From positions 1 to 51,677 of the IMG/VR virus record IMGVR_UViG_3300022602_000142: a stretch of DNA of 51,677 bases. One strand, given 5' to 3'. Shown here piece by piece: positions 3,277 to 50,460 of this stretch. The position numbers and the translations under genes are program-made. Every line of letters starts with the position of its first letter. Position 1 is the first letter of the stretch. Under the pieces are notes generated by a model, which saw only the letters and a list, made by a program, of their open reading frames with translations, did not search any database and was not told where the DNA came from. Source of the stretch: a virus.

Positions 3277-5991
3277 TTAACCAAATGTAAATAATTCTTC
3301 AAAGTTGTTACTAGTATCAGTTGCTGATTTTAAATCCCAATCTAACACGCCCAATAAGTTGTCGATCTTTTTATCGACTAATGTGTTTTCCATAGTTGCA
3401 TCGTCAAATGGCAATTCAATAAACCATTTAGGCAATCTTAATTCATCTACTGGATACGCAATACTTGTAAAGTTTAATGGGTTGCTGCGTAGTTTACACA
3501 CAACTACTTTCATACCATCAACAATCTTCATACTATAATTGTCCCCATTTACTCTACGCAGATAGTTCCAATTCAATGCTCCTCGAACATGTCCTGGCAT
3601 ATTTGCTTTGCCTGTACTACTATTGGCTTCTAAGTCGCCATACATAGTGAGTTTGTTTACAGACTTGGGGCTACCTTTAGTCCAACTATCTTGTTCACTT
3701 AATTTGATTTTAAAGTCTTTAATCTTTTGTATAATGTCTTCACGACTACTACCAGCAAGTACATTTTCAAGTACATCCATTAAGAACTCTTGAACATACT
3801 TTGGAGTATCTGCTCGTTTAAGATCAAGACCCATTGCTTTGATGTAGCCGCGTTTACCGTTTACATCTAATCTTTTGCCTTCTTTATCAAAGATATTGAT
3901 AGCATAGCGTTTCTTTGTAATGAATAAACTACGATCACCAATTAATTCGCGTCCTGCTTTGATGATTTCTCCGTTCTTTCTTGGCGCATGGAATGCTCGT
4001 TCCATGAAGCCGGGAAAAGTAGCGTTGGTCTGTTCAGCAATGCTGTCATAAATTTGGATAACATTTTCTTTAGTCCACTCCAATTCGCCATTATCTATTT
4101 GCTCCTTAAGTATTGCATATGCGCTAAAATAACAACTATCAGTATCGCCATATACAATAGCAGGACCTTCGTGATTATATTCATTTGTTACAATTTCATT
4201 AATGGTACTCATCATATGTCTAACAATCTGACGACCACTTAATGTAACACTTTGACCTATACGCTTATCATAGAAACGACAGTGTTCATTTAACAATGCA
4301 CCATAAGCACTATTCAATAAAATCTTACGTACTAATTGTCGTTTATCCCAATATGCTCTTTCTTCGGGTGTAGTGCTTTCTTTGAGTTTTTTTTGCATTA
4401 CTTTACGATCACTATACCAACGTGATAGTAGTCCGGGAATTACGCCTTCATTGTCATATCTAAAGATCGTGCCGTTAGCACTTAGAATATATGGCTTATG
4501 ACTATCAAATATCAACTTCCATACTTCTGCTGCACTTTTAACTTCAGTGCGACCATCTTCATAGTCAATAGTGATATCTGTTCCACGTTCTTGTTTCATA
4601 ACGCTGGCATATTCTAGTGCGCCAAATAGTCCTTCCCATAGTTTACTACCGGTCTCCATATCATCATCTTCTTCACTGTATCTTGCCTTTTGTCGTGCTA
4701 ATTCACGCCCTTTCTCAAGCATACACTGATCAGTAAGTGAAGGTCTTAGTTGTCCAACAATTGTTTCTGGAGCCATGTTCAACGCACGAATCACACTGGG
4801 ATACAGACTGTTAATATCAACTGCGCCTACCCATTCATGTATGCCACGTTTAGGATTGGCGACAAACGCACCAGCTGCTGGACTTGTTTCTGTTTTATTT
4901 TCGTCACGCTTTTTCTTATCTGGAATTACAAGCCCACGCTCGTGTGCCTCGTTCATAATAGCCATTTCAATCATTGCTACAGAACCCATAACAGTTGGCA
5001 ATAATACAGTATTTTCATGTGCTAGTTGATTTGCCAATTCTAAGAACTGTAGTTTCTTGTCAATCTTAACAAGCAACATTGTATCCTGACGATTGTATTC
5101 TAAGAATCTTTTGAAGTCTTTATTGTAAAGTTGGTCAAGTGTACCTTCATATTGAGTTTTGTTTTCACCAACTTCCATTTCACCAATAAAGTCTAGTTTA
5201 TAACTATGGCGACTTTCATAGTTGTACTTTTTATACAATTGTAGATAGTCCATGTGTATACGGCCAACTAAGTCATAAGTTGTTTCAACTTTACCAAATC
5301 GTTCATATTCACGTGCTTTTGGCAACTGACCAAGCAAACAGAATTTTCGTGTGTCATCTTTGCTCATTACACGTGTTACACGATTAACAAGATAGGGAAT
5401 ATCGTAACCTTCTGAGTTCCAACCACTGAGTACGTCTGCATCTTCGATTAGTTTGAAGAATGCCTCAAACATATCAATTTCATTGCGAAACATTACAGTG
5501 TTATCAAATTCATTTACAATATCTTGTGCAGTATCATCACTCATACTCTTAGGCGGTATGCATAATGTTACAAGTTGATCTAACCAAGTCAAATACAAAC
5601 TAATTGCTGTGACTTTATTAAATGGATCAGTAGTTGGACTAAAGCCTTTCTCTGGGTCAAAGTCTACTTCAATATCGAAAAATACTGTATGTAGTTTTGG
5701 AGCATCGACTTTTAGATAGTGTTCGCTAAGACAGCGAAACACTACGTTTACATCGCTTTCAAATATCTTTTTATTGCCATGTATACGTCTTTCTTTTTCA
5801 AATTCAGATTTTTTACGTGTACTGAATCTGCTTACACTATCGCCATACATACTACGATACTTGCCTTTTGGATCGGCATAATACATAATATAATTGGCAG
5901 GATACTCGTTATAAGTTCTTTTGCCGTCTTTACGTTCTACGACAAATATCCTATCAGTTTGCCTATCGTGTATTGCATCAATATATGACAT
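3277..5991 (-). CDS. 43: Family B DNA polymerase (T4 gp43-like)
   Basis: At 904 aa it matches T4 gp43 (898 aa). The 3'-5' exonuclease motifs are visible: FFDIE (Asp106/Glu108), SGWNSEGYD near 189-197 and YNRQD at 299-303. Polymerase motif A is VDINSLYPS around Asp392, motif B is KILLNSAYG, and motif C is YGDTDS in the final third. All catalytic acids are present, so the enzyme should polymerise and proofread. Its start overlaps the end of the SGNH gene by 14 nt, so it is probably expressed from the promoter upstream of the DsbA-like gene. No intein or split is seen. Confidence 0.97.
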   Translation of the reverse strand: MSYIDAIHDRQTDRIFVVERKDGKRTYNEYPANYIMYYADPKGKYRSMYGDSVSRFSTRKKSEFEKERRIHGNKKIFESDVNVVFRCLSEHYLKVDAPKLHTVFFDIEVDFDPEKGFSPTTDPFNKVTAISLYLTWLDQLVTLCIPPKSMSDDTAQDIVNEFDNTVMFRNEIDMFEAFFKLIEDADVLSGWNSEGYDIPYLVNRVTRVMSKDDTRKFCLLGQLPKAREYERFGKVETTYDLVGRIHMDYLQLYKKYNYESRHSYKLDFIGEMEVGENKTQYEGTLDQLYNKDFKRFLEYNRQDTMLLVKIDKKLQFLELANQLAHENTVLLPTVMGSVAMIEMAIMNEAHERGLVIPDKKKRDENKTETSPAAGAFVANPKRGIHEWVGAVDINSLYPSVIRALNMAPETIVGQLRPSLTDQCMLEKGRELARQKARYSEEDDDMETGSKLWEGLFGALEYASVMKQERGTDITIDYEDGRTEVKSAAEVWKLIFDSHKPYILSANGTIFRYDNEGVIPGLLSRWYSDRKVMQKKLKESTTPEERAYWDKRQLVRKILLNSAYGALLNEHCRFYDKRIGQSVTLSGRQIVRHMMSTINEIVTNEYNHEGPAIVYGDTDSCYFSAYAILKEQIDNGELEWTKENVIQIYDSIAEQTNATFPGFMERAFHAPRKNGEIIKAGRELIGDRSLFITKKRYAINIFDKEGKRLDVNGKRGYIKAMGLDLKRADTPKYVQEFLMDVLENVLAGSSREDIIQKIKDFKIKLSEQDSWTKGSPKSVNKLTMYGDLEANSSTGKANMPGHVRGALNWNYLRRVNGDNYSMKIVDGMKVVVCKLRSNPLNFTSIAYPVDELRLPKWFIELPFDDATMENTLVDKKIDNLLGVLDWDLKSATDTSNNFEELFTFG

Positions 5992-13608: not shown

Positions 13609-14147
13609 AATATAGACCTTAATTCTGAAGGTAATATGGGATTTTCCATACGTTCGGGATGCCACATCAATCCAAATATATATTTGGTTTTATGACGAAA
13701 CCCTTCTATGCTGCCATCACTTGCCATGGCAATTGGGTATAGGTCTGGTCCTAATTTTTGTATGCTCATATTATGATAACTATTTACTTCGTATTCAGTG
13801 TCTTCCATACTAATCTGATGAACTGTATCCAAATGATTATCTATAATATCGCAGACACCTTCTTCTAAATCGTTTATTAATAATGCGCCATGACATATAC
13901 CAAGTATAGGTATTTTACGTGCATAGCATTGTGCTATTAATCTTGTTTCAATTATTCTACGTTTTGGATGATCATCGCCACCTGTTACAATTAACAGTTG
14001 TATATTATCTAAATTGAATTGATGATCTAGTGAATTTGGGACACAAAAAAGCGTATGATTTTTTAGTAGGCTGTACCAGCCCTGTTCTAAACTATCATAC
14101 GCTCTATTCTTATGAACAAGTGTGCGTTGTGTCAGCGCAATGTTCAT
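13605..14147 (-). CDS. Peptidase C26/PuuD-like class I glutamine amidotransferase
   Basis: Start set at ATG 14147 (TAATG overlap with the ferritin-like gene) instead of the TTG two codons upstream, giving 180 aa. The amidotransferase triad is intact: LGICHGALL with Cys85, and GLMWHPER with His163 and Glu165. VNSYHNMSI near 121-129 matches the gamma-glutamyl hydrolase/PuuD subgroup. It may hydrolyse a gamma-glutamyl bond or feed ammonia to a partner. It lies between a diiron protein and sulfotransferase-like genes in one operon. Confidence 0.75.
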   Translation of the reverse strand: MNIALTQRTLVHKNRAYDSLEQGWYSLLKNHTLFCVPNSLDHQFNLDNIQLLIVTGGDDHPKRRIIETRLIAQCYARKIPILGICHGALLINDLEEGVCDIIDNHLDTVHQISMEDTEYEVNSYHNMSIQKLGPDLYPIAMASDGSIEGFRHKTKYIFGLMWHPERMENPILPSELRSIL

Positions 14148-14845
14148 TACCAACCATATGCTTCAGATACTAAAGCCTTAGCAGCTGGAACTTCCATTGT
14201 GTTTTTGCAACTGATGTCAAATAAGTCTTTACGCATTTGAGCAACTAATGCTGCTACACGTGTTTGTGTGGCTTCATCATTTGCCAATGTTTCTAACTTA
14301 CGTGCACCGATTTTGCTGTGGAAGCCTTCGTCACGTGCGATCATTGCATAGCGTGTGCTAATGAATGAATCTTCAATGCATTCTGCCATTTGATTCCAAA
14401 CGGCTTCAGCACGACCTTCTGCTACTAATTGATATGCTGCTAATGCAGCAGGATCTGTTTCTGCTTCATACTTAGCAAGTAGACTTGCACCTTTTGCTGT
14501 TGGCTTTGCAGCCTCATTAGCAATTGCATCTTCTACGTTGATTTCTGAACCAGTAATGTGTTCAATTACTTCCTTAACTAAACGGAAGTGAACTGCTTCG
14601 TCATAAGCTTGTTTGCTTAATAATTGCAATTCAGATGGGTCTGTGTTTGCTGGAAGAGCGGCTACTTGAGCAGCAATTTCAACCATGTTCATTCTTTCGT
14701 TAACCATACGACCTACAAAGTGTTCAACTAAACTTTCTTGACTTGGGTTACTAGCAAAATATGCTTTAACATTAATTTTACTTGCTTCAAATAAAGCCTC
14801 GTTTTCTGCTACGATCTTGGCAACAAATTCTTTTCCTGTGAGCAT
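14147..14845 (-). CDS. Ferritin-like diiron-carboxylate protein
   Basis: The 232-aa protein is all-helical and Ala-rich, with two ExxH elements spaced as in ferritin-like diiron proteins: YDEAVHFRLV near residues 85-95 and ARDEGFHSKIG near 170-180. There are additional helical Glu residues between them. It lacks ribonucleotide-reductase radical motifs. It could be a diiron oxygenase acting with the neighbouring amidotransferase and 2OG enzyme. The start ATG 14845 has AAGGAG and a long leader from a GATAAATA box at 14910-14917. Confidence 0.65.
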   Translation of the reverse strand: MLTGKEFVAKIVAENEALFEASKINVKAYFASNPSQESLVEHFVGRMVNERMNMVEIAAQVAALPANTDPSELQLLSKQAYDEAVHFRLVKEVIEHITGSEINVEDAIANEAAKPTAKGASLLAKYEAETDPAALAAYQLVAEGRAEAVWNQMAECIEDSFISTRYAMIARDEGFHSKIGARKLETLANDEATQTRVAALVAQMRKDLFDISCKNTMEVPAAKALVSEAYGW

Positions 14846-15848: not shown

Positions 15849-17900
15849 CTATTTTGATGTTGCTCTATATACGCCATCCCAATTATCTGGAACATCAGTT
15901 TCCATACGCTCAAGCATTAGTTCATAATACTTGTGTAATTCGCCGTTCCAGCCTTTTGCCAACAAACCATCGTTTTTCATACCATTGATGTAAAACTTGG
16001 CAGTTTTCCAATCGCCTTTACGATATGATAACAGAAACTTCTTATGTTTGTCAAGTGCTAGACTGTCATCAAATGGAGCAACTGTGTAAATTTTTACAGG
16101 TTCGGTTTTACCTTTTACCGCAATTAAATCTAATTCAATAACTGTAAATTCATCACAGACTAATTCTGCTGTTCTTGGCCCGAGGATGATTTTGACTCCA
16201 TAGGGTTTGCTTTGTCCTTCCAATCTACTAGCGAGATTGACACCATCCCCGAGACATGTGTAGTCAAAACGTTGAGTGCTACCCATGTTACCAACAACCA
16301 CTGTATCGGTATTAATGCCAAGACCCATACCAAAAGCAGGCACTCCTTCTTTACTAATTTCTTCATTAAATTTCTCCAAATCTTTTAACATTGCTAGACC
16401 TGTGCGCAATGCGTTTTTAGCATGGTCACTGTCATCAAGTGGAGCGTTCCAAAATGCCATTTGAGCATCACCTATGTATTTGTCTAGTGTGCCGTTATTT
16501 TCTAGTATTTTAGCAGTCATTGCTGTCATGTAACGGTTCATGATTTTTGTTAGACCCTGAACATCTTTGCCATAGTGTTCACTGATTGTAGTAAAGCCAC
16601 GAACATCAGTAAACATAATACTAAGTTCACGACTTTCGCCACCAAGTGCTAATAGTTCAGGGTTCTTTTGTAACTTCTCAACCATTGCAGGGCTGAGATA
16701 TGTGCCAAACTGTTTCTTTATTTGTTGCTTTTGCAGGAATTCGCTAACAAACTTGACACCATAGGCATGGAGTGACACAAGGAGTATCGCTCCAATGGGG
16801 AAAGTGATATCAAATAGTAAAAGATGATTACTAAAAATATAGTGGCTAGCATACGCAATGCCAGTAACAATGATAACAACCGATCCCAAACCCACATATA
16901 CATACCTCGTTAATAGTAATAATACTATACCTAACACCAATATAGCAAGTAATTCGGCGCCGTCAGCATAATCTGGGCGACTAATCACAACACCATTCAT
17001 CATAGTGTTTAATAAATGTGCTTGTAGATAATGTGGATACACTGCGCCAATACTTGTTGGTACTGGGTTACTAATGCCCGCAGCAGTTGGGCCCACAATT
17101 ACTACACCGCCATTGAAATCTTTTGGCAAATGTGACAAACTACTAATATTAAAACTTTGACTGTAATCTACCCAAACACGACCCAAATTATCTGTTGTAA
17201 TAGGACCATATTGAGGTATGCGCATTTTTTCAACGCCAAGTTCATTGAGTTTAATTTGTGTTGTAGTGTCACCACTTGCTACACGCAATATTTCCATAGC
17301 AAGACTTGGATATAAGTTACCATCTACACTTGTAATAAGTGGCATTCTGCGTGTAACACCGTCAACTTCTGACAATGTATTAACTGTACCAATGCCCACA
17401 GCATTTTGTTCAAGTACAGGTATGTTAGCAATAATGCCTGGGTACTTTACAATGCGATCTTGAAAGTCACTGTTGATTACAGCAGTACCAGGTTTTCTTG
17501 GAATATTTTTAGTTTTATCACTTGGCACGTTTACTAGTACAACAGGATGTTGATACATAGCACTTGCTAAAGCACTGTCGCCATTTAATCTATCAGGTTC
17601 ACTAAACATAATGTCTAATACTACTAGACCTGCGTTTCTAGCATATAACTCGTTTACGATTTTGGCATATTCAGTTCGTGGCAATGGCCATTGTCCATAC
17701 TTGTTAAGTGCTTCTTCGTCAATGTTTACGATAGTAATAGGACTATCAATTAACGCACTGGGTTCTTTGTTGGCAATAAGCGTATCAAAGTAACGCAAAC
17801 GTATGCTTTCTACAAAATGTGTATCGATTACTCGTACAGTTAGTACAAGTGCTAATGTGAGTAAGGCAGTCCAAGGACTGAGTAGTATTTTCTTTAACAT
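15849..17900 (-). CDS. CHASE2-domain membrane adenylate cyclase (class III)
   Basis: The 683-aa protein has an N-terminal membrane anchor (about residues 8-25), then a CHASE2 extracytoplasmic sensor (about 30-300, with IVNIDEEAL and GLVVLDIMFSE). Three membrane segments follow (about 315-385), then a class III cyclase domain. Both metal Asp residues (432 in FTDVRGF, 478 in KYIGDAQ), Lys474, the TCLGD Thr548, Asn555 and Arg559 are present, so it should be active and prefers ATP by the Lys/Thr pair. It is the downstream gene of the curli-FecR cluster. CHASE2 cyclases neighbouring FecR proteins are known in bacteria; in a phage this is unusual. Confidence 0.92.
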   Translation of the reverse strand: MLKKILLSPWTALLTLALVLTVRVIDTHFVESIRLRYFDTLIANKEPSALIDSPITIVNIDEEALNKYGQWPLPRTEYAKIVNELYARNAGLVVLDIMFSEPDRLNGDSALASAMYQHPVVLVNVPSDKTKNIPRKPGTAVINSDFQDRIVKYPGIIANIPVLEQNAVGIGTVNTLSEVDGVTRRMPLITSVDGNLYPSLAMEILRVASGDTTTQIKLNELGVEKMRIPQYGPITTDNLGRVWVDYSQSFNISSLSHLPKDFNGGVVIVGPTAAGISNPVPTSIGAVYPHYLQAHLLNTMMNGVVISRPDYADGAELLAILVLGIVLLLLTRYVYVGLGSVVIIVTGIAYASHYIFSNHLLLFDITFPIGAILLVSLHAYGVKFVSEFLQKQQIKKQFGTYLSPAMVEKLQKNPELLALGGESRELSIMFTDVRGFTTISEHYGKDVQGLTKIMNRYMTAMTAKILENNGTLDKYIGDAQMAFWNAPLDDSDHAKNALRTGLAMLKDLEKFNEEISKEGVPAFGMGLGINTDTVVVGNMGSTQRFDYTCLGDGVNLASRLEGQSKPYGVKIILGPRTAELVCDEFTVIELDLIAVKGKTEPVKIYTVAPFDDSLALDKHKKFLLSYRKGDWKTAKFYINGMKNDGLLAKGWNGELHKYYELMLERMETDVPDNWDGVYRATSK

Positions 17901-17910
17901 GATCGCAGCC

Positions 17911-18483
17911 TTAATGTCTAATATAACTATAACTACCGCAAATAAGGCAACTTATAGTCATGCTGCCACTGTTACTTACTGTAGGATTGTCCTGTATTAC
18001 AGTAACTGTTGCACCGCTGCTTCCATTGAGTGTTAGACTAAAACTTTTATCTGCTCCTGAATTTCCACTCTGTGTAACATTAACTGTATTAGCACTATTT
18101 AGCGTTCCTGCTGTAGTTGACAGTATGAAGGTGTTGTTACTTGCTCCTGATTGAGTGACACTAATGCCATTGGCATCACCGACAACGCCATTGATTTTTG
18201 CTACATTATTGCCTGAGCCACCTTGTATAACATTAAATGTATTGTTAATACCACTTTGTAAATCTATGCCAGCAATCAATGATCCAGTACCATTTTGTGT
18301 GACAGTAAACGAATTGCCGTCAACCGGGCTCATAAAGCCAGCAGTGATTTTGATATAGTCACCGCTATATTCTTGACTGACATTATATGTGTTATTGTCA
18401 CCAACCTGATTGATATAGATGTTTGGGTTATTCTGAGCAAAACAAGTTAATGGAAACAATAATAGTAATAGTAAGTATTTCAT
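17911..18483 (-). CDS. Curlin-repeat secreted protein
   Basis: The 190-aa protein starts with a signal peptide (MKYLLLLLLFPLTCFA). It then has about six imperfect repeats built on N-x-(V/I)-x-Q-x-G-x-x-N, for example NTFNVIQGGSGNN and NTVNVTQSGNSG, the pattern of curli subunits CsgA/CsgB. It ends with a pair of Cys residues (ISCLICG). It would be exported by Sec and then by the CsgG pore, forming amyloid-like fibres. It starts on the FecR stop (TAATG). A second curlin-like gene lies at 19622. Confidence 0.8.
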   Translation of the reverse strand: MKYLLLLLLFPLTCFAQNNPNIYINQVGDNNTYNVSQEYSGDYIKITAGFMSPVDGNSFTVTQNGTGSLIAGIDLQSGINNTFNVIQGGSGNNVAKINGVVGDANGISVTQSGASNNTFILSTTAGTLNSANTVNVTQSGNSGADKSFSLTLNGSSGATVTVIQDNPTVSNSGSMTISCLICGSYSYIRH

Positions 18484-19613
18484 TAGTTTTGCCTCAATAT
18501 AATTGTACTACTTTTGCCGTCATTGACACGGTTCTTAATAGTCACGCCATTTTCAATCATTGTTATTGTAACACGATCTTGCGTTGTGGTAGTAACACTT
18601 TGGACATCGCTGCCGTCATCACGACTTAATGTTACATTTATTGGGGTGACTAATTTAGTCACATTACTACTTGGAAACCAATCTGGCAATAATTGATTTT
18701 CTGGATTTAACATATTAGATAATAATGCTGCTGCGTCCATACGTAACTGCTCACTTAATATATGAAAGATATCATCTAAAAAGTTTTGCTGTAACAATGA
18801 AATAGCCAATGGATCATCACCCAATGGATTATAATTTGCTAGTTCATTTTTTAAGAAATCTTGTTTAAGATAATCAATATCTAACATGTCACCATTTTGT
18901 CTAATTACATTGGTGTCTTTGCTAACTTCCTGTTGTTTGAATTCTTTGGGTGGGCTAACGATCAATAAGTTATTAATCTGATTAGGATTCAAATTAAGTA
19001 CAACAGGTTTACTGGGAGCAAGTTGTCTACTAACAACTTTTGTACCCATAAAGGGTTTATCTAATGTAACGCTACCTGCGTCATTATAAACATCAATAAC
19101 ACCTGTCTTACAATCGGTTTCTACATTAATATAGTTTGCAGGACAACTTGGCAATAGTATAATACTACTCTCGCCAAACTCATCTACAACTGCGCTGAAA
19201 TCTGTACCACGAACTGCCACAGTGGCTGCGGGTGTGTTAATGTTCACACTGTTAGGATTGTTATGTGCTATAGCGCCACTAGCATAGCGTACTGTGCCAG
19301 CAGCAAACTTTAATCCTAGTTTGTTGGGAGTTTTACCTTTGGGATCATAAACAAAATCATCAATAACAAGTTTGCTATTTTCATTGACTTGTACTTTAGT
19401 ATCATCAACAAATGTAATATCGGCAATGCCTAATGTTGTTTTGATTGTGTCGTTCATTTCAACGCCAGTACCTTTAGTACCTTGTAATGTATTTTTGTCA
19501 CGAACGATTTGTGGAACTGTTTTAACTTGATTTGTAATACTACCCACACTAGCATAAGTGTGGGGTGAGAATATCAATAATAATAAACCCAACCCCACAT
19601 ATCTTTTAGTCAT
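18483..19613 (-). CDS. Secreted FecR-domain protein
   Basis: The 376-aa protein has a signal peptide (to about residue 21, HTYA). It then carries a FecR domain: GVEMNDTIKTTLG, ADITFVDDTKVQVNENS, AGTVRYASGAI and NINTPAATVAVRGTDFSAVV. The last is the typical end of that domain. The C-terminal 180 residues are of unknown type. Standalone periplasmic FecR proteins next to CHASE2 sensors are thought to act in signal detection. Here it lies between two curlin genes, suggesting it senses or anchors the fibre. Confidence 0.85.
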   Translation of the reverse strand: MTKRYVGLGLLLLIFSPHTYASVGSITNQVKTVPQIVRDKNTLQGTKGTGVEMNDTIKTTLGIADITFVDDTKVQVNENSKLVIDDFVYDPKGKTPNKLGLKFAAGTVRYASGAIAHNNPNSVNINTPAATVAVRGTDFSAVVDEFGESSIILLPSCPANYINVETDCKTGVIDVYNDAGSVTLDKPFMGTKVVSRQLAPSKPVVLNLNPNQINNLLIVSPPKEFKQQEVSKDTNVIRQNGDMLDIDYLKQDFLKNELANYNPLGDDPLAISLLQQNFLDDIFHILSEQLRMDAAALLSNMLNPENQLLPDWFPSSNVTKLVTPINVTLSRDDGSDVQSVTTTTQDRVTITMIENGVTIKNRVNDGKSSTIILRQN

Positions 19614-19621
19614 TATAACCT

Positions 19622-20479
19622 CTAGTGTGTATTCGAACTAATGGTAAATGTATTACCGCTGCCCGTACTGTGTAAGTTTATAGTACTATTAAAACTAGTA
19701 CCTAACTGTGTAATGTTTGCGATGTTACTACTACCAGTTAAACTAATTACAAAGGTATGCCCTCCTGAACCTGTACCTCCTTCTTGATCTAATGTTACTT
19801 CGTTGCTTGCGCCTACAATTGTAATACTTGCTGACCCATTGTCATCAGTGGTAGCACTAGTTGTGCCACTTAGATTTACCGCAGTAAGACCTATAGCACT
19901 TCCACCTATACCTTGATTGACAACTACACTGTTATTACCACCACCTGAGATGTCAATATTTTGTGTTATATTGCTACCATTGATAGTAGATATCACACTG
20001 TTATATGAACCACCTGCAGTTGTAATTGTACTGCTGTTCTGACTACCAAGCATAAAGAATTTTAACAGTGAATAATTACCTGTTAATGTAGCAGATAAGT
20101 TATTGCTTTCGCTTTGACCAGTACCGTCGCCGTTACTGTCAATAATCGCATTGCCATTATTACCTGTTAAACTATAGGTGTAATTATTACCATTGCTAAC
20201 TCCATTTGCTGTAGTTGTAGCAATACCCATGCTTAATGTATTACCTGTACCAACTTGGTTTATTGTAACATTATTGTTGTCGCCATTAATAATCGCAGGA
20301 TTGGTACTACCATTACCTGCTCCTGGCAACCCTTGTAAAATATTACCCGCACCATCTTGGTTTACACTTACAGTAGCATTGCTACCAGTTTGACTGATAT
20401 AAATGCTGTTATCTCCTGCAACTGCTGTAACAGTTATTAATAATCCTAAAACTAAGGCCATTAATTTACTGAACTTCAT
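19622..20479 (-). CDS. Curlin-repeat secreted protein, second copy
   Basis: The 285-aa protein has a signal peptide (about residues 1-22, ending AVAG). It then has curlin-type repeats such as NSIYISQTGSNATVSVNQDG, NNVTINQVGTGN, NSVVVNQGIGG and NIANITQLGTS, separated by longer Asn/Gly/Ser/Thr insertions. It is larger and less regular than the 17911 protein, so one may act as nucleator and the other as main subunit by analogy with CsgB/CsgA. It lies 1 nt downstream of csgG. Confidence 0.8.
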   Translation of the reverse strand: MKFSKLMALVLGLLITVTAVAGDNSIYISQTGSNATVSVNQDGAGNILQGLPGAGNGSTNPAIINGDNNNVTINQVGTGNTLSMGIATTTANGVSNGNNYTYSLTGNNGNAIIDSNGDGTGQSESNNLSATLTGNYSLLKFFMLGSQNSSTITTAGGSYNSVISTINGSNITQNIDISGGGNNSVVVNQGIGGSAIGLTAVNLSGTTSATTDDNGSASITIVGASNEVTLDQEGGTGSGGHTFVISLTGSSNIANITQLGTSFNSTINLHSTGSGNTFTISSNTH

Positions 20480-20480
20480 T

Positions 20481-21344
20481 TTATTTTTCCCCAGACACTT
20501 TATTATTGTTATTGGTTGTGTCTACATTTTTATTCCACCAAGATTCTTCAGGGGGTGGCATTGGATATTTGAAATCCCAAATCCCTTTATGTTCACCCTC
20601 TTTTATCAACTCTACAACAGCAGCCTCGATTGCGGTCTTAACTGCTAATGTTCCTGGCTCGTTTATTGTCAAGCCAGTTTCCAACTCAAACGACTGTGTT
20701 CCCTCTCTGAAGAATCTTAAGACAGCAACACTATCTGCCGTTGAGTATATTGTCTTAGTAACTGTAACTGCTACTAAGACTTTACCTGTAGCAACACTTA
20801 CTGCTCTGAGACTAATAACTACTATGTCCTTACTGTACTGTGTACTAGGACCAATGCCTAACCAACGATATGCGTAGCCACCACTTACTGTGCTGCTATC
20901 ATATCCTACAATACCACCTTCTAATATTATTCCTGCGAATAGCATTGGCGGCAATTGTTGAGCATCTTTACCTTCATAAGCATCACGCATTTGTTTAATA
21001 ATGGTGCGCTCTTTAATTAAGTCATCAACATTTGTTCTTTCTACCACATCGAACCATTGACCTTTGCCTACATTTTGTAATGCTTGTATTAAGAATGGTT
21101 CTGCACCTTGTGTAACAGCACTGCTAAAACTAGCATATGTGCCACTGTTTCTGCGTTGACCTGTTAAATCTGTAAATTTATAAACACTTACTATAACTTT
21201 AGGACTTGCTGGAGGAGGTATAATATCAAACTCACGCTGCAACCTATTAGGAGCGACAGTAGGCAATTCCTCTTTAAACATTTTCTGTTGTAACGCACAT
21301 CCAGTTAATGATAGCGTTAGTAATAATATTAATAACTTTTTCAT
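20481..21344 (-). CDS. csgG: Curli secretion lipoprotein CsgG
   Basis: The 287-aa protein has a lipoprotein signal with LTGC (Cys16 becomes the lipidated residue) and the CsgG body. KVIVSVYKFTDLTGQRR is followed by QNVGKGQWFDVVER, GIILEGGIVGYDS and the SVATGKVLVAVTVTKTIYS strand of the pore. CsgG forms the nonameric outer-membrane channel for curli subunits and requires a Gram-negative outer membrane. It overlaps csgF by ATGA. No csgE or csgD is seen in the window. Confidence 0.93.
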   Translation of the reverse strand: MKKLLILLLTLSLTGCALQQKMFKEELPTVAPNRLQREFDIIPPPASPKVIVSVYKFTDLTGQRRNSGTYASFSSAVTQGAEPFLIQALQNVGKGQWFDVVERTNVDDLIKERTIIKQMRDAYEGKDAQQLPPMLFAGIILEGGIVGYDSSTVSGGYAYRWLGIGPSTQYSKDIVVISLRAVSVATGKVLVAVTVTKTIYSTADSVAVLRFFREGTQSFELETGLTINEPGTLAVKTAIEAAVVELIKEGEHKGIWDFKYPMPPPEESWWNKNVDTTNNNNKVSGEK

Positions 21345-21817
21345 GGACCTGTTCCACTTCCTGTTATATTAAATGTGCCTAATGGTACAGTAATTGTTGT
21401 TGTGTTGCCTAAACTATCAGTAATGGTTAATTGAATATTACCGCCAGTGTTTTGCCAAAAGATTGTATTGCCTTGGAAACTAAATGTGCCACTTGTAGCA
21501 CTGCCACCTGCAAACATAGCAGTGGCTAAGTTTTGACTAACTTGTGCTAGTATTCTACTTTCTAAGTTGGCTAGGAATTCGTTTAATGGTGTGTTTTTAG
21601 CATCGTTGATGGCTTGTTGTTGAGCAGCCAATAATGCTTGTTGTATTGCTTGTTGGCGTGTGTATTCTTCGTTCTCAATTGTTAGAACATAGGTGCCGTA
21701 ATTCTGCCCATTAAAACTCGGACTTTTAAATTGAAAGTCTGGCAGTGGCGCACTGTTACTTCTTGTCACTACCCCCAGTAGTAGCAGGAACACTAGTGCT
21801 TGTGTTAGTTTTCTCAT
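21341..21817 (-). CDS. csgF: Curli assembly protein CsgF
   Basis: This 158-aa protein has a signal peptide (to about residue 23). Its mature N terminus, DFQFKSPSFNGQNYG, matches the CsgF segment that inserts into the CsgG pore. A Gln/Ala-rich helix (QQALLAAQQQAIND) and a beta-rich tail follow, giving the usual CsgF size. It is coupled to csgG. AAGGA precedes ATG 21817. Confidence 0.85.
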   Translation of the reverse strand: MRKLTQALVFLLLLGVVTRSNSAPLPDFQFKSPSFNGQNYGTYVLTIENEEYTRQQAIQQALLAAQQQAINDAKNTPLNEFLANLESRILAQVSQNLATAMFAGGSATSGTFSFQGNTIFWQNTGGNIQLTITDSLGNTTTITVPLGTFNITGSGTGP

Positions 21818-21896
21818 CTTTCTTTTCCTTGTTCTTTTCGCTGCTCCACTCTAATTCAAGCAAGAGCACTTTTAAGACTTCTAGTTTTAATTTCAT
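21756..21896 (-). CDS. Possible small ORF overlapping csgF (46 aa)
   Basis: ATG 21896 lies 2 nt after the stop of the 103-aa membrane protein and the frame runs into csgF for 62 nt. It encodes a Leu-rich helix followed by a Lys/Glu tail and a Ser/Thr end. It fills an otherwise empty 81-nt gap and keeps the operon's spacing, but the overlap is long and no family is recognised. Confidence 0.35.
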   Translation of the reverse strand: MKLKLEVLKVLLLELEWSSEKNKEKKDEKTNTSTSVPATTGGSDKK

Positions 21897-21898
21897 GT

Positions 21899-22210
21899 TC
21901 ATTTACTATCAACCTTAACTTTTTCTTTACCACCTTTACCCTGCGCTTTGTTTCTCAATTCTTGTGCGTCACGCAGTATAATAGTAGTATCTAACTTTTG
22001 TTGTAGTCTAATAATATCATTATCCAACATTCTAATTCTGTCAATCAAAGCGATTAGTGTAATGTTACTTTCTTTAAGCACATTCTCAATGTGATTAGTA
22101 ATATAGTTCCATATAAACCATACTAAGTAAAGCAACATAACACTTGATACAATAGGAAAGCCATATTGACTTATTAAATCACCTATTTTTGCTAATGCTT
22201 GTGCTTCCAT
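21899..22210 (-). CDS. Holin-like (UviB/BhlA-type) small membrane protein (103 aa)
   Basis: One N-terminal membrane segment (about residues 15-36, YGFPIVSSVMLLYLVWFIW) is followed by a coiled-coil and a lysine-rich tail. This is the layout of UviB/BhlA-type holin-like proteins. The 93-aa gene at 22383 has the same layout and the same GFPI(V/A)S start to the membrane helix, so the two are probably paralogues. Position next to curli genes could mean a lysis role or a role in moving curli subunits. Confidence 0.55.
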   Translation of the reverse strand: MEAQALAKIGDLISQYGFPIVSSVMLLYLVWFIWNYITNHIENVLKESNITLIALIDRIRMLDNDIIRLQQKLDTTIILRDAQELRNKAQGKGGKEKVKVDSK

Positions 22211-22399
22211 TTACCACGTCACTTTAATCAAATTAACTATTCCATCTACAATCTTGACAACGAATTGCTCATCTTCTTTGACATTAAGTTCTTCTGCTGT
22301 TAACTTCTTGTCAAATACTATGTTGTGCCCTTCGGTCAAGGAAAACTTATACTTGAAAGTAATATCTTCTGATTCCATAGGTTTAGTCTCGTCTTGCAT
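22211..22399 (-). CDS. Small hypothetical protein between two holin-like genes
   Basis: No family recognised. The sequence is a short beta-rich domain (ITFKYKFSLTEGHNIVF, then EQFVVKIVDGIVNLIKV). The start is uncertain: ATG at 22399 has AAGG close upstream, while 22411 and 22378 are alternatives. The upstream TTG is unlikely. It ends one base before the 103-aa gene begins. Confidence 0.5.
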   Translation of the reverse strand: MQDETKPMESEDITFKYKFSLTEGHNIVFDKKLTAEELNVKEDEQFVVKIVDGIVNLIKVTW

Positions 22400-22664
22400 C
22401 GACCTTACCATCTGCTCTAGCGATGCGATCAATGTCTGGTTTAAGTCCTAACAAATTGCTGATAGTCATATCAACACGAATTACATCATTGTTCATGGTT
22501 TTAACACGATTGTCTAATGCTGTAATTATACCCTTTAACCCCATAACCTTGTCACTTACCCCTTTAAGTATGTACTTTACACTTAAAAAGATAAAGAATC
22601 CACTAAGCATGGCACTTGCGATTGGAAATCCTACCTTACCTATTAAATCAAATACTGCTTCCAT
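22383..22664 (-). CDS. Holin-like (UviB/BhlA-type) small membrane protein (93 aa)
   Basis: An N-terminal membrane helix (GFPIASAMLSGFFIFLSVKYI) precedes an amphipathic helix with alternating Ile/Val and charged residues and a basic tail. It is the first gene of the curli transcript behind a GCTAAATA box and has AGGTG before its ATG. Same layout as the 21899 gene. Confidence 0.55.
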   Translation of the reverse strand: MEAVFDLIGKVGFPIASAMLSGFFIFLSVKYILKGVSDKVMGLKGIITALDNRVKTMNNDVIRVDMTISNLLGLKPDIDRIARADGKVDARRD

Positions 22665-30161: not shown

Positions 30162-32141
30162 TTATTTTTTAAGGCCCTTTAGTATAGAACTTTCGTTCTT
30201 TACACAGTTAGGAACAGTTTTGCCGAACATTTTTTTGTTACCTTCTTTGTGATAACCTTTCCAGCAATTTTCATCTAATTCATCTTCGGCTAAGCCAAAT
30301 GCTTTAAGATTTTGTTTTTCAGTTTTTTCATTGTGTGCTAATGTTTCTGGGCCTGGCGCTTCGCTAAGTTTTGCTAAGTCCTTGGGTGTAAAACTAACAA
30401 CTGGATCATATAATCCATATTTGTTGGCTACAGTATCATTCATTTTAAACTTAGGTAATTTTTTAAGCAATGCTCTAATCTGATTAGCATTTCTTACTAT
30501 GCCAGTTTGTTTAATGTTAAACTCTTTCCATGCTTCGCCATTGCTACTTAAATTTTCTTGGTTCAAAAATACTGTGCCATCTTTACTAATGTCTACAACA
30601 ATTTTTTTAAAATCATCGCTTTCACTTAATCCTGCAGGCCTAACTTTAATTTTACGTTGTGCTTCGCCAGCATCACTGCTACTAAAAATACTTGGTCCTT
30701 CACTTAAATGATTGTATTCCCCGCGGGCTAATCTGTCAACTACGGCTTTAGTAAACGCAGTAACATCACTGCTACCTATTTCTTGCAAATCGTTCCCACC
30801 ATATTCTGCTGCTATGTCATCAACTGCTTGCCCTACTTTTACTGGACCATATTTTGCTAGTAAATCATCGTGCGCATGTAAAATTCTATTAATTATAGCA
30901 TTGCGTATACCATCTACCATTTCTTTCGATTCGTGTAATGAACTACTATCACCTGATTCTAAATAATCAATCATGTCTTGAAATGGCTCGTGCGCTGCTG
31001 TATAGAATGTATTTTCTAAACCACGAACTGCGTCTTTAACATCAGTTAAATGATAATCTAAATCTACCCCAACACTTTTAGCAATATCGTTTATCTCTGC
31101 TAATATTGACATCAATTCATATTCTTGTTGTTTTATAGCTTTAGCAGCATACAAGGCTTTTTGTTGTGCGGCTTTTAATTTAGTTATTTGGTCTGAGTTT
31201 GCTGCTTCGTTTGTTGTACTTAATTTTTTTAATGCACGCTCTATCCCACGTTGACGCATTTTGTCTTTATGTGTTTCACCTGCTTTGTTATATGGATCGC
31301 CCTTTTTACCAGAACTATAACTTGCGCCGGTAGCACTTAATAATTGATCTTCAATATTTTTTGGAATATAACGTTTTACTGTTTCTTTACTTATTTCATT
31401 TACTTGTTTTTCATTTTCTTTAAAAATACCAGTTGGTCTTTCATAACGACCGGTAAATTTATTATATTCATAATCACTTGGATATCTTGGAGTTTGCTCA
31501 CCTGCATATTCTACTTTTACGATTTTTCTATTAGGATATGATTTTTCCCAATTGGCTTCATATTCTTTTGGAAATTCATCGAAATTGGTTTTTGTATATG
31601 CTGTTTTTACAGTAGGGTCATTGCCATCAGTATAACTTATTTTCCAAAGATGATCGCTTTCAAAACTACTTTCGTTTGTTTTCTTTTTGCTGCCCCATTT
31701 GCCGTGGCTTTTACGACACTTAACTAATGCCCCACTGGCATATGCACTGGGCCATACTTTATAACGACTTTTTACTTTATAATAGCAAGCATCTTTTTTT
31801 TCATTAAGTTGGCTTTCATGTACTATTTCGCCACCACATTTAGGACATTTGCTTTCGTCTACTTTATCTTTTAATAAAATTTTTACAACTTCTCTTGCCA
31901 AATCTTTTGTTTTGTTTGGAGTTTTTGCTGAAAGTAATTCAGGGTTTCGCAACATAAACTTGATAATTAAACCACTTAAAAATGTATGCGCATAGTTTGT
32001 GTCAGCAACTTTATCTAAATTAGGCATCATATTGCTGCTTTTAAAAGCATCTGCAACTTGTTTTGCTTTTTTGTTTTCAGGTGCCCATGGGCCTTTTACT
32101 ACCTCGCCTTCTTTTTGTATGCCTTTTAGTATTGAACTCAT
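30162..32141 (-). CDS. Mosaic Cys/Lys-rich late protein (659 aa)
   Basis: Start set at ATG 32141 (MSSILKGIQKE|GEV), which overlaps the upstream stop by ATGA. A longer upstream frame is unlikely. Visible parts are a CPKCGGE knuckle near residue 105 and a basic module (DACYYKVKSRYKVWPSAYAS followed by GALVKCRKSHGKWGSKKK). Charged coiled-coil stretches follow, and a Cys-Lys ending (ENCWKGYHKEG...VPNCVKNES) finishes with SSILKGLKK. The terminal SSILKG repeats the N terminus. I associate these modules with marine phage proteins of unknown role. Packaged DNA-binding protein is a guess. Confidence 0.6.
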   Translation of the reverse strand: MSSILKGIQKEGEVVKGPWAPENKKAKQVADAFKSSNMMPNLDKVADTNYAHTFLSGLIIKFMLRNPELLSAKTPNKTKDLAREVVKILLKDKVDESKCPKCGGEIVHESQLNEKKDACYYKVKSRYKVWPSAYASGALVKCRKSHGKWGSKKKTNESSFESDHLWKISYTDGNDPTVKTAYTKTNFDEFPKEYEANWEKSYPNRKIVKVEYAGEQTPRYPSDYEYNKFTGRYERPTGIFKENEKQVNEISKETVKRYIPKNIEDQLLSATGASYSSGKKGDPYNKAGETHKDKMRQRGIERALKKLSTTNEAANSDQITKLKAAQQKALYAAKAIKQQEYELMSILAEINDIAKSVGVDLDYHLTDVKDAVRGLENTFYTAAHEPFQDMIDYLESGDSSSLHESKEMVDGIRNAIINRILHAHDDLLAKYGPVKVGQAVDDIAAEYGGNDLQEIGSSDVTAFTKAVVDRLARGEYNHLSEGPSIFSSSDAGEAQRKIKVRPAGLSESDDFKKIVVDISKDGTVFLNQENLSSNGEAWKEFNIKQTGIVRNANQIRALLKKLPKFKMNDTVANKYGLYDPVVSFTPKDLAKLSEAPGPETLAHNEKTEKQNLKAFGLAEDELDENCWKGYHKEGNKKMFGKTVPNCVKNESSILKGLKK

Positions 32142-33340
32142 CTTATTGTCCCGTTTAAAAATAACTCTACAATTGTTTGTATATCCATACGTAACGTTTT
32201 TGCTTTGTTTTCGTATTTTAAATTGCCATAAGTTTCTGGCCATTTCTTTTTAATATCATTCATTACACCATATACGCCCATTTGTTCTTTAGATTTGTCT
32301 TTCCCCATATCGCTATAGTTTAAAATCCATCTTATGTATCCTGGTAATTCTCTACGTAATTTTTTATCACCTAAATAAACACCGTCGATCCAATCATGTA
32401 CTTTTAACCAAAAACGTTGTGGATTATCAAACAAAGACATGTCATATTGATTTGTATATTTTGGAGTTGCAAGATTTAAATTTTGTTGTTCTACGCCTTC
32501 ACCGACGCCGCCGGCAGCGATAACACCGCCAGTCATTTCGTTAACACCATCAGCACTTTCTTGTTCCATGCTATCAGCAACGCTATCAAGATAGTCACTT
32601 GCTAATGTAATATAACTTTGTTGCCATGCCATGATGTTTTGGCGTTGACCTAATAATTCATAAATCTTTTTAGCACTCTTTACAGCACTACGCATTTCGC
32701 TACGTGCCATGCTAATTTCGTGATCGTTAAAACCTTGTTCTTCGCTCATAGGCATTTGTTTGCTGACCATGTAATCACTTACACTTGTCATCATTCCTTT
32801 AATTTGTCCAATTTTTTCACTTACCCATTCTGGGAATTGTGTGCTACTCTCTAAATGACTGTATAATTCTTGTGCGTTACGCATAATAGTTTTTAAACTA
32901 TTTTTAACTGTTTCTAATTCGTGATCTGCTTTGTCAGGATCATGTGCGTGAAATCCTGCACGTAATCTTGGGCTTTGTCCTGGAACTAAAATTACATCTT
33001 CTTCACTTAGTGACGCTTCTTTCAATTCAGACGGTTTAATTCCTGCTTTAACAGCAGATACTTTGTCTTTAGGATCTTTAGTTTTTTTATATTTGGCAAT
33101 TAACTTTTTTTGTTCAGGGGTTAATTTGTCTGATTTATTGCCCTCTTGGATACCTTCAAGTACAGGACTATTCATGTATGGGCCTTTTCTTTTCATTTTG
33201 CCGCCCTTTTTAAGCAATTTGCTTACTGGTTCTTGACCACTAACTTTAACGCTTTCACGTTTAATTGCCTTGCCCATGGGTGCTGCTACAGGGGCGATGC
33301 CGCCTGCTACTGTTGTTTCTGTAATGTTCTTTATTTTCAT
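32138..33340 (-). CDS. Putative capsid-targeted late protein (400 aa)
   Basis: The start MKIKNITE|TTVAG fits the capsid-targeting pattern. A basic stretch (KLLKKGGKMKRKGPYM) and NSPVLEGIQEGNK near residues 58-70 echo the SSILKGIQKE start of the next gene. The rest is charged and helical (SEMRSAVKSAKKIYELLG, then DYLDSVADSMEQESADG) with no catalytic motif. A GATAAATA box at 33365-33372 precedes it with a 20-nt leader. Function unknown. Confidence 0.6.
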   Translation of the reverse strand: MKIKNITETTVAGGIAPVAAPMGKAIKRESVKVSGQEPVSKLLKKGGKMKRKGPYMNSPVLEGIQEGNKSDKLTPEQKKLIAKYKKTKDPKDKVSAVKAGIKPSELKEASLSEEDVILVPGQSPRLRAGFHAHDPDKADHELETVKNSLKTIMRNAQELYSHLESSTQFPEWVSEKIGQIKGMMTSVSDYMVSKQMPMSEEQGFNDHEISMARSEMRSAVKSAKKIYELLGQRQNIMAWQQSYITLASDYLDSVADSMEQESADGVNEMTGGVIAAGGVGEGVEQQNLNLATPKYTNQYDMSLFDNPQRFWLKVHDWIDGVYLGDKKLRRELPGYIRWILNYSDMGKDKSKEQMGVYGVMNDIKKKWPETYGNLKYENKAKTLRMDIQTIVELFLNGTIR

Positions 33341-47898: not shown

Positions 47899-47906
47899 TA
47901 TTTATT
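47899..47906 (-). promoter_or_regulatory. T4-type late box AATAAATA
   Basis: The predicted start near 47893 leaves a leader of about 13 nt with AGGA before the fibre-gene ATG at 47880. Confidence 0.55.
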
Positions 47907-50460
47907 ATGGATATGTGTTAGGTAAAATAGTTTTACGTGGGAATAAAACATAAAAATCTTTACTGTCTAATGGATTTGGTACTGGGGTGCCACTTGGTAA
48001 ATCTGTCCATGCAGGTGGAGTTAATGTGTTATTGTAGTCATATGTCATAGATTTATTAACGCTAAATCTATCTATTTCAAAGTTAATTTGATTTAACACA
48101 TATGGCTGAGGGTTACCATTTACATTATAATTTAACCAATTATTTTGTATTTGATATTGTATGTATTCCGCATAACTTACAGTTTGACCGTTAAGGGTAG
48201 TAGTGCCAGGTAATGTATAACATATTACCCATGCTGGAACGAATCCCAATGTCCCACCATTACTTTGCTGACTTGTCATCCATGCTGGCAATAAACTACT
48301 GCTATAAGTTTGACCAAGAACTTGCCCTACACGCTCTCTCATATCAATTAAACTGTTTGGATATAGTTCTTGCGCATGTCCTGGATCTAAACTAGTATAA
48401 TATGTTGGGTTACCATTACTATCAGGGTAGATATAACTTGTATAAATGTCTGTTACGCTAGTATACCATGGTCCCAAAAATAACGGTATAGGTCTAGGCC
48501 ATTCAATACTTTCGGGTATGCTTATACCCTGTGGGTTTACCAAATTATCAATAACGTTACTATATACAACTTCATATATAACATTGCCATTGCTATCTTT
48601 AGCAACAGCAGTGTTGATTTGTCCCAATGTCAAATTTCGCCAATAATGGTTTTGTGTTACTGCTGCTACATATTGATCAAAGTCACTAGCATCAATGCCA
48701 TATGCGTGTACATATGTAACATCAGTGGCTACACCAAAATTAGGATCATCTGGTCTATAAATGAAACTTGGTGGTATAAGAGTTGGATTTTGTAATAATC
48801 CTTCTAAAATCAAACGTTGTTCTAACGGTGGAGCAGCCGTAATATAAAGAGTATCACATGGGTTATCGAACTCTTGATAGACACTCATACTAAAATTTTG
48901 TGTAGATTGAATTAATGGATAGTTGGGTGAATATGCTTTAACAGTAAAATTATATGTTAAAGTAGTGTCAACTGGTGTTAATTCATCTTGTGGTTGCCAA
49001 GCAACATTGCCAACTATTTCTCCATTGCTTAATAAATTTAAATTTGGAGGAAGCGATCCACTTATGATTTCATACTGCAAAGGTATATCACATTCGGCAA
49101 ATACTGAAAATGTACAAGGTGTACCATTAGACAATGTTCCTAAAACTGAAGGACTTAACCACGTAATTGTTCCATTAATATCATTTGCAATTACAAAACT
49201 AAATGTAAAAAATGTTGATTGAACTGTAGGGAAGTTTGCTTTTTGTACTTGTACATCAAAAGTAAATGTATTGATAGTGTTTGGACTTACTACAGGTGTT
49301 CCCGATATCCATCCAGTATAAGGGTCACCAATTAACCCCAATGGCAATCCTATATAGTTATACTTTAAACTATCTCCATCAAAATCGTAGCCAAGTATTT
49401 CAAATTGAAATAACTCACCACTTAATATTGATCCTATATTAGCAGGAACATTAGTTGGATATGTGTTGCCGTTACTATTTTCTGGCAATATATAATATGC
49501 ATAAATTTCAGGATTATTTGTTATATCATAACTTTCTGGTCGTGTGTTAAGAATAGTAGGCACACGTGTATGCGGCGGTAATCCTGGACCTCCTTGACCT
49601 GTTGGAGTATTTTGATTTATAACTGTTATAAAATAACTTTGTAAATCATTACCCAATGGGCTTTGCAATTCTAAACTAAAACTATATGTGGTAATAGTTG
49701 GTTCACCTGCAACGCTATTAGGCAATACAGTTGTTAAAAATCCACTATCGTTGGTTAAAGAAACAATTGGTCCATATTGAGATGTGCTAATAGTAAATTG
49801 TGTGTTGTTAATAATTGAAGCAACGTAATATGTTTGTCCAGGTATAATATTACCAAATGAAGTTCCTGTAAATGTAATTTGTCTTCCAACAACAAACCCT
49901 GATGTACTTACTACTGTAATACTATTGTTTATACTGCTAGTAACAGTAGCATAAGTTACAACTGTTTCAAAATTAATATAGGTAACTGGGGGATTAGGAT
50001 ACCCTCGTATAATGCCATATTCATTTATTTCTAATCCTGGAGGTAAATTACCCTGTATTAATCCAATCGTAACAGGATTACTACTTACTGGGTTACTGTA
50101 AAGTATAGGATATTCTACCCAAAGACTGTCAAGAGTTGTTAATATCTGTCCTGCAGGAGTAGTAAACGCTGGGCTTGGAGCCGCTGCTATTGTAATTGTA
50201 AAGGTTCTATCTTGTATATTACCTAAATTATCTGTAACTCGTATAGCAAAAGGATAAGTTGTAACTATGCTAACAGTTGGCTCATTACCTAATAACAAGC
50301 CATTTGAATTTAAAGTAACCCCAGGTGGAAGTGTGCCACTTAACAATGTATATGTAAGTGTGGTTGCTGGTGCAACAGCACTAGCAGAAAATTGAAATAC
50401 AATAGAAGTTTGAAAAATTCCTATTGATCCTGCTGGCGTATTCCAAACTGGGGCTGTCAT
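47905..50460 (-). CDS. Large Ig-like-domain virion adhesin or baseplate protein (851 aa)
   Basis: The protein contains several putative Ig (He_PIG-like) repeats. Each has a LPPG(V/L)xLxxNGxxxG turn and a Y-F-x-(I/V)-x(V/A)-x-D/Q strand, for example at residues 43-85 (SGTLPPGVTLNSNGLLLGNE), near 140, 360 and 470. The last 250 residues are aromatic- and Pro-rich and distinct. Ig modules on phage surface proteins often bind cell-surface carbohydrates. It is coupled to the endolysin gene upstream by 1 nt. Confidence 0.75.
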   Translation of the reverse strand: MTAPVWNTPAGSIGIFQTSIVFQFSASAVAPATTLTYTLLSGTLPPGVTLNSNGLLLGNEPTVSIVTTYPFAIRVTDNLGNIQDRTFTITIAAAPSPAFTTPAGQILTTLDSLWVEYPILYSNPVSSNPVTIGLIQGNLPPGLEINEYGIIRGYPNPPVTYINFETVVTYATVTSSINNSITVVSTSGFVVGRQITFTGTSFGNIIPGQTYYVASIINNTQFTISTSQYGPIVSLTNDSGFLTTVLPNSVAGEPTITTYSFSLELQSPLGNDLQSYFITVINQNTPTGQGGPGLPPHTRVPTILNTRPESYDITNNPEIYAYYILPENSNGNTYPTNVPANIGSILSGELFQFEILGYDFDGDSLKYNYIGLPLGLIGDPYTGWISGTPVVSPNTINTFTFDVQVQKANFPTVQSTFFTFSFVIANDINGTITWLSPSVLGTLSNGTPCTFSVFAECDIPLQYEIISGSLPPNLNLLSNGEIVGNVAWQPQDELTPVDTTLTYNFTVKAYSPNYPLIQSTQNFSMSVYQEFDNPCDTLYITAAPPLEQRLILEGLLQNPTLIPPSFIYRPDDPNFGVATDVTYVHAYGIDASDFDQYVAAVTQNHYWRNLTLGQINTAVAKDSNGNVIYEVVYSNVIDNLVNPQGISIPESIEWPRPIPLFLGPWYTSVTDIYTSYIYPDSNGNPTYYTSLDPGHAQELYPNSLIDMRERVGQVLGQTYSSSLLPAWMTSQQSNGGTLGFVPAWVICYTLPGTTTLNGQTVSYAEYIQYQIQNNWLNYNVNGNPQPYVLNQINFEIDRFSVNKSMTYDYNNTLTPPAWTDLPSGTPVPNPLDSKDFYVLFPRKTILPNTYP

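Follow-up and report, generated by a model that had tools for sequence, protein, structure and literature searches.

A curli export cassette joined to a FecR-domain and CHASE2-cyclase unit in a jumbo-phage fragment

Why should a virus carry the genes for curli export, and why in one unit with a FecR-domain protein and a membrane-bound adenylate cyclase? This question is raised by IMG/VR virus record IMGVR_UViG_3300022602_000142, which was analysed as a whole stretch of 51,677 bases (the window). Eight genes are transcribed from the minus strand in the order SM1, SM2, CsgF, CsgG, curlin-1, FecR-domain protein, curlin-2 and CHASE2 adenylate cyclase (Table 1), SM1 and SM2 being two small genes at the upstream end. 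Judged by its domain matches, the locus is a phage-borne type VIII secretion system (T8SS, curli) cassette joined to a unit of FecR-domain protein, CHASE2 cyclase and SM1/SM2, and its carrier is a jumbo phage. A sequence-only reading of this DNA had named six of the genes as a single minus-strand operon among phage genes. Pfam and the gene junctions bear out the six identities, the operon and all coordinates, and the phage context is correct as well. Two genes within the range of that reading (22383-22664 and 21899-22210, our SM1 and SM2) had been left unnamed and belong to the cassette too.

We regard the gene identities as near certain. The Pfam scores in bits (curated cut-off in parentheses) were 61.3 (25.8) for CsgF, 152.4 (20.8) for CsgG, 38.6 (24) for FecR, 149.3 (26.3) for CHASE2, 66.2 (21.9) for the class III cyclase domain and 22.5 (20.7) for curlin-1. 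The sole named domain below its cut-off was that of curlin-2, which fell short by 0.9 (19.8 versus 20.7 bits). CsgG matched PDB entries 3x2r and 4uv3 with E-values of 1e-38 to 1e-40 (1.8e-40 for CsgG). The curlin-1 profile matched the solved curlin fibre 8c50 (E 5.5e-16) and CsgA 8enq (E 1.1e-5), and its model consists of short strands in series with tight turns (predicted local distance difference test score, pLDDT, 80.5). A Foldseek search with this model gave no PDB match under E 0.001, although the sequence profile search did. The earlier assignment of the repeat proteins to the curlins agrees with the curlin profiles and with the solved CsgA and R15.5 fibres, curlin-2 lying just under the Pfam threshold. 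The cyclase matched adenylate cyclases in PDB and has the complete set of catalytic and base-specifying residues (D432, K474, D478, T548, N555 and R559), as have 94 of 126 viral cyclases, the window included. An Asp at the Thr/Asp adenine site was seen in 32 of the 126, in two inspected examples together with a Ser at the transition-state Asn; from their residues, the Ser/Asp variants may differ in activity. The core genes are tightly packed. CsgF and CsgG overlap by 4 nt, FecR and curlin-2 by 1 nt, and the remaining core gaps are 1-10 nt; the spacing is wider at the upstream end, with 172 nt between SM1 and SM2 and 81 nt between SM2 and CsgF.

The phage lineage was deduced from the DNA polymerase of the window (3277-5991). 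Its closest isolates are the jumbo phages Sinorhizobium phage Phosso and Agrobacterium phage Atu_ph07 (47-49%), and the matches of the ATP-dependent protease include jumbo phages besides others. The polymerase is 53-73% identical to that of nine CsgG-bearing IMG/VR contigs of 259-349 kb (G001, G002, G805, G806, G807, G809-G812); two smaller CsgG-bearing IMG/VR records reach 65% (G008, 121 kb) and 93% (G011, 57 kb). Identity to HTVC008M, Melnitz and their relatives is only about 30%. Because its polymerase is near those of the 259-349 kb contigs and so distant from those of the pelagimyophages, the window is, by this marker, a jumbo-phage fragment and no pelagimyophage.

Curli genes have been described in phages before. 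In 2020, csgF and csgG were reported with neighbours of unknown identity (PMC7029224). In 2022, one study thought the fibre subunits to be missing and proposed a lysis pore (PMC9004378), and another described the full set 'HK'-CsgF-CsgG-CsgA/B-FecR-CsgA/B-AC in pelagic podo- and myophages, already proposing superinfection defence, aggregation and sibling capture (PMC9599517). In HTVC008M and Melnitz the eight genes, the small upstream pair among them, stand in the identical order, and the deposited Melnitz record annotates two curlin-repeat proteins. The idea of a distinct new system, put forward in the sequence-only reading, can thus not be kept, since set and order, together with the proposals of superinfection defence and aggregation, were on record in 2022. 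Among the new points here is a jumbo-phage lineage bearing the same curli cassette. Our literature search, limited to open PMC papers, found none on curli in jumbo phages and none naming CsgG, CHASE2 and FecR together with phage.

Conservation of the cassette was surveyed at 160 IMG/VR loci, which, with few exceptions, have the order SM-SM-CsgF-CsgG-curlin-FecR-(curlin)-AC, AC being the cyclase. Loci fetched by CsgG only, with at least 6 kb downstream, contained FecR in 44/44, curlin in 44/44 and the cyclase in 43/44 cases; because of these counts we do not attribute the co-occurrence to chance, although the loci are related and the events not independent. Together with HTVC008M and Melnitz, they confirm the earlier expectation that csgG, CHASE2-cyclase and FecR genes would be found side by side in other phages. 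Conversely, CsgG was present in 48 of 53 loci fetched by the cyclase only; among the five others, CsgG and the cyclase are about 19 kb apart in the record of L144, and in L146 the curli genes lie on the opposite strand. Curlin-repeat genes occurred in all 98 loci with room for them, and the FecR stop codon overlaps the curlin-2 start in 81 of 84 cases. In jumbo contigs L144, L145 and L146 (L146:9998-16444), the cyclase is either about 19 kb from csgFG (329 kb contig) or convergent to CsgF-CsgG-curlin-FecR-SM1-SM2; where it is separated or convergent in this way, SM1/SM2 remain near the cyclase. Short MAG-binned contigs (metagenome-assembled genomes, MAGs) with the cassette or its sister described below (L184-L187, L192, L213) were regarded as probably of phage origin. 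In one Rhodobacteraceae MAG bin (G030), four different curli cassettes (L307-L310) were seen, each with SM genes; most likely this MAG is contaminated with phage contigs from the binning.

The two small upstream genes were followed separately. According to PMC9599517, one or two short 'histidine kinases' always precede the cassette. Because SM1 and SM2 occupy the same position, they are probably these proteins, and yet no kinase domain (HisKA or HATPase) was found in them in Pfam, NCBIfam or PHROGs, which removes the kinase label. When IMG/VR was scanned with SM1 and with SM2, each on its own, 86 loci had at least 8 kb of room, and csgF/csgG were present in 75. Of the other 11, ten have a CHASE2 cyclase convergent beside the pair and one has neither. 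All 16 large contigs from the SM1 or SM2 scans contain CsgG, and among 50,697 phage records SM1 was found in just those six that bear the cassette. Judged by these counts, SM1/SM2 track the cassette almost perfectly and are its near-obligate partners. Both weakly match a PHROG labelled as holin (E 9e-5 and 2e-4). General phage holins were considered and rejected as the main interpretation, because nearly all SM pairs with room adjoin the curli cassette or its sister.

The FecR-domain protein had been taken for a sensor, which we now doubt. Apart from its signal peptide it is free of transmembrane (TM) helices, and no anti-sigma domain was matched in Pfam. AlphaFold2 with 22 relatives (alignments for structure models consisted of window and IMG/VR rows) predicts with confidence a FecR fold at 24-193 and, towards the C-terminus, a region of six strands at 318-375; between them lie a disordered linker (about 215-281) and a helix. 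The best Foldseek match of the model is the periplasmic domain of PupR (E 2.3e-4). At rank 4 follows 5ix9, the membrane-anchoring domain of the M. primoryensis adhesin (E 0.076, probability 1.00, root mean square deviation 1.4 over 62 columns, TM-score 0.71 of the target), which is also the best sequence-profile match of the protein (E 0.07). The tail is curlin-like, for which the grounds are an enriched end motif and a profile match that is marginal: 71 of 87 distinct viral FecR proteins have a strand-x-Q end, compared with 4 of 71 bacterial FecR proteins not beside curli and 24 of 1420 other viral open reading frames, and 6.7 of 87 would be expected for shuffled viral FecR tails. This domain layout, together with the sister cassette, fits an anchor better than a sensor.

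A parallel viral cassette on a type I secretion system (T1SS) adhesin was uncovered in the survey. MAG-binned contig L192 (5210-15365) contains FecR, cyclase, SM1 and SM2 without curli genes. Here, a 1,317-residue protein without signal peptide carries the FecR domain close to its N-terminus, and the gene for this giant is followed by those for a TolC-like outer-membrane protein (OEP), a 248-residue protein with a partial ABC-transporter PHROG match, an HlyD-type adaptor, the cyclase, SM1 and SM2. Relatives of this type are common in IMG/VR (302 cyclase relatives). Of sister loci with room, 68 of 80 have SM1 and SM2; an upstream FecR was found in 8/8 and OEP and HlyD in 7/8. The giant adhesins have 1,005-1,696 residues and share the signature VIDDFVYDP...SGQIAK...VRGT with the curli-type FecR proteins. 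Sister contigs reach 103-172 kb, one with a T4-type baseplate gene nearby; the OEP of the sister cassette was found in no isolate of the phage set. Marine viral contigs with the T1SS adhesin cassette are L192, L492, L504, L514, L527, L530, L532 and L575. In several contigs a T1SS-type unit has a curli unit next to it (L488, L551). In L488, L551, L563 and L565 the two types stand back to back, and some loci have two CHASE2 cyclases. Because the T1SS sister keeps FecR, cyclase and SM1/SM2, the gene content indicates that the shared core is the FecR domain with CHASE2 cyclase and SM1/SM2, and that the export machine is exchangeable.

The comparison suggests a concrete job for the FecR protein, that of a fibre anchor. 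In T1SS adhesins with a retention domain, the N-terminal domain remains in the periplasm and so retains the fibre within the channel of the outer membrane (PMC6890996, PMC13090378). As the FecR domain forms the adhesin N-terminus in the T1SS cassette, it should there be physically part of the secreted fibre. Because the domain is joined to a giant adhesin in this way, we consider that the FecR protein of the curli cassette, by analogy with adhesin retention domains, probably anchors the fibres from the periplasm.

Outside viruses, the parts were found apart. In 16 ordinary alphaproteobacterial curli loci, neither FecR nor a CHASE2 cyclase was present within up to about 10 kb on each side, several of these stretches being ended by contig ends. 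Several bacteria have FecR near a CHASE2 cyclase without curli. Because bacteria have curli loci without FecR and cyclase, and FecR-CHASE2 pairs without curli, both building blocks are cellular, whereas the two were seen combined almost exclusively in viruses. Exceptions, and the sole chromosomal full copies found, are two Caulobacteraceae MAGs (L188, 7019-13076; L189, 7062-13082), two of seven genomes of the genus and two of 390 of the family. Their order is csgF-csgG-curlin-curlin-FecR-cyclase amid clear bacterial genes, and SM1/SM2 are missing. In the trees, both their CsgG and their cyclase fall within viral clades, several members of which adjoin phage polymerase, primase or NrdAB genes. 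A tree keeping the viral rows together was rejected by the approximately unbiased (AU) test with p 0.002 for CsgG and 2e-5 for the cyclase; these values come from quick trees with groups named after the trees had been seen, and both MAGs are from one sampling. Because of the nesting and the rejected viral-only grouping the two look like recipients, and a transfer from phage to bacterium is likely. A bacterium as donor was considered and rejected: ordinary curli loci are devoid of FecR and cyclase, the two copies nest within phages, and the AU tests reject the viral grouping. With the chromosomal copy, a bacterium would have kept a fibre system that phages had built.

Taken together, we tentatively propose that the FecR domain, CHASE2 cyclase, SM1 and SM2 may form a self-contained phage 'anchor-and-report' unit for different fibre exporters (curli T8SS, T1SS giant adhesin). 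In this unit the FecR domain would be the periplasmic stop that tethers the fibre, the cyclase would report the fibre as host cyclic AMP (cAMP), and the full curli version would have moved from phages into the Caulobacteraceae chromosome.

For the window, the best explanation as a whole comprises curli export, a FecR pore anchor, a report by the CHASE2 cyclase and alteration of the cell surface, and we give it a probability of about one half. During infection, CsgG-CsgF would form an outer-membrane pore through which curlin-1 and curlin-2 would be exported to polymerise on the host cell surface. The folded FecR domain would keep the FecR protein in the periplasm, as adhesin retention domains do; the linker would thread the pore and the curlin-like tail would template or anchor the fibre. 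In the periplasm, an anchor that is occupied or loaded may be detected by the CHASE2 domain of the cyclase, an inner-membrane protein, which would then change host cAMP; SM1/SM2 may be inner-membrane partners of this cyclase. Most likely, the coat would serve to alter the surface of the infected cell such that rival phages are excluded or cells are clumped.

Several points weigh against this explanation. The role of SM1/SM2 and the purpose of surface exclusion are both inferred, and Melnitz-infected cells in culture showed no clumping (PMC9004378). Ser replaces the transition-state Asn in 32 of the 126 viral cyclases, so that cAMP output may be lost in some phages, Melnitz included. The match to 5ix9 is weak when taken alone, the profile comparison (hhalign) aligns the FecR tail only marginally with the last curlin-1 repeat (P 0.003, probability 10%), and with a curlin hidden Markov model no single tail was significant. 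CsgE was detected in none of 14 records, the complete HTVC008M and Melnitz included; because bacteria outside Gammaproteobacteria can lack it (PMC9599517), we do not hold it essential.

This missing gate also fits a different proposal, made for pelagimyophages and Melnitz, that CsgG-CsgF is a pore only (PMC7029224, PMC9004378). It would serve the uptake of large molecules or, like a pinholin, a timed outer-membrane hole for lysis, with SM1/SM2 as holin-like helpers, in line with their holin-labelled PHROG matches. We consider this unlikely. The proposal presumed that subunits are missing, but every locus with room has curlin-repeat genes, as has the Melnitz record, and the curlin-1 profile matches solved fibres. 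SM1/SM2 follow FecR/CHASE2 cassettes, that of the T1SS included, rather than lysis genes, and the endolysin gene of the window is 28 kb away.

A classical transducer that senses iron or the state of the fibre and signals via a sigma factor or the CHASE2 cyclase, without structural role, as in the sequence-only reading and PMC9599517, is doubtful, though less so than a mere pore. Its FecR domain scores above the Pfam cut-off with a PupR-like fold, and FecR and CHASE2-cyclase genes are near each other in several curli-free bacteria; but the protein is exported and has neither TM helix nor anti-sigma domain, its tail is curlin-like, and the adhesin of the T1SS cassette has this very domain as its N-terminus. 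Very improbable, finally, is a passive passenger of a variable host-interaction island that is kept by inter-phage recombination without joint function. The CsgG and cyclase trees do conflict (Melnitz groups with HTVC008M for CsgG and not for the cyclase), and position and orientation of SM1/SM2 vary. Nevertheless, all parts and their translational coupling are retained near-perfectly across very divergent phages, and the catalytic residues are intact in most cyclases.

Table 1. Genes of the curli cassette in the window, in order of transcription.
Feature	Position	Strand	Characteristics
SM1	22383..22664	minus	93 aa; single predicted TM helix, then conserved amphipathic stretch with DGKxDARRD end; first of paralogous pair (phrog_18771)
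SM2	21899..22210	minus	103 aa; single predicted TM helix, then ALIDRIRMLDNDxIRL; second of pair
CsgF (T8SS chaperone)	21341..21817	minus	signal peptide; E. coli CsgF N-terminal motif FQFxxPxFxG kept; Pfam PF10614; weak match to PDB 6l7a
CsgG outer-membrane curli pore lipoprotein	20481..21344	minus	lipobox LTGC; Pfam PF03783; PDB 3x2r/4uv3
Curlin-1	19622..20479	minus	signal peptide and repeated strand-x-Q-x-G motifs; predicted repetitive beta-strand fold; Pfam PF07012
FecR-domain protein, secreted	18483..19613	minus	signal peptide; FecR fold; disordered linker; helix; beta-rich C-terminal region with curlin-like strand-x-Q end; Pfam PF04773, AlphaFold2, Foldseek, hhalign
Curlin-2	17911..18483	minus	190 aa; signal peptide; five strand-x-Q-x-G motifs; Pfam PF07012 just under cut-off
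CHASE2 adenylate cyclase	15849..17900	minus	683 aa; TM, extracytoplasmic CHASE2, TM cluster 318-385, class III catalytic domain

Some other minus-strand genes of the window were also inspected. Just downstream of the cassette lies a gene for a ferritin-like protein with weak similarity to the ribonucleotide reductase small chain (14147-14845), which adjoins a class-I glutamine amidotransferase/peptidase C26 gene (13605-14153). An AntA-like antirepressor match below the cut-off (32138-33340) lies among several large proteins for which family matches are scant or absent. Beside the endolysin gene (50462-51079), an 851-residue protein with putative Ig (He_PIG) domains is encoded (47905-50460), which is probably a virion or surface protein.

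With this comparison, what had been a list of odd auxiliary genes becomes a mechanism that can be put to the test. If phages do rebuild the surfaces of infected cells with tethered fibres and a cAMP-linked sensor, this bears on superinfection exclusion, on the aggregation of planktonic bacteria and on the rewiring of host signalling by phages. Among known systems, the bacterial curli operons of ordinary alphaproteobacteria resemble the window in that the CsgF, CsgG and curlin genes adjoin. The T8SS cassette of pelagiphages (HTVC008M, Melnitz and HTVC023P-type podophages; PMC7029224, PMC9004378, PMC9599517) shares the gene order, with 36-48% protein identity within the cassette, but the carrier of the window cassette is a jumbo lineage and not a pelagic myo- or podophage (polymerase about 30%). 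The labels in those papers, as we infer them, are histidine kinase for SM1/SM2 and iron regulator for FecR, and the window sequences support neither. FecR/PupR anti-sigma transducers have the periplasmic FecR fold in common with the window protein, which differs in being exported and in having neither a TM helix nor a cytoplasmic anti-sigma domain. In adhesins of the LapA type and that of M. primoryensis, a periplasmic fold is followed by a linker in the pore and repeats outside, and the viral T1SS sister has the same layout. These adhesins use a T1SS channel, whereas the window has CsgG as its channel and curlin repeats.

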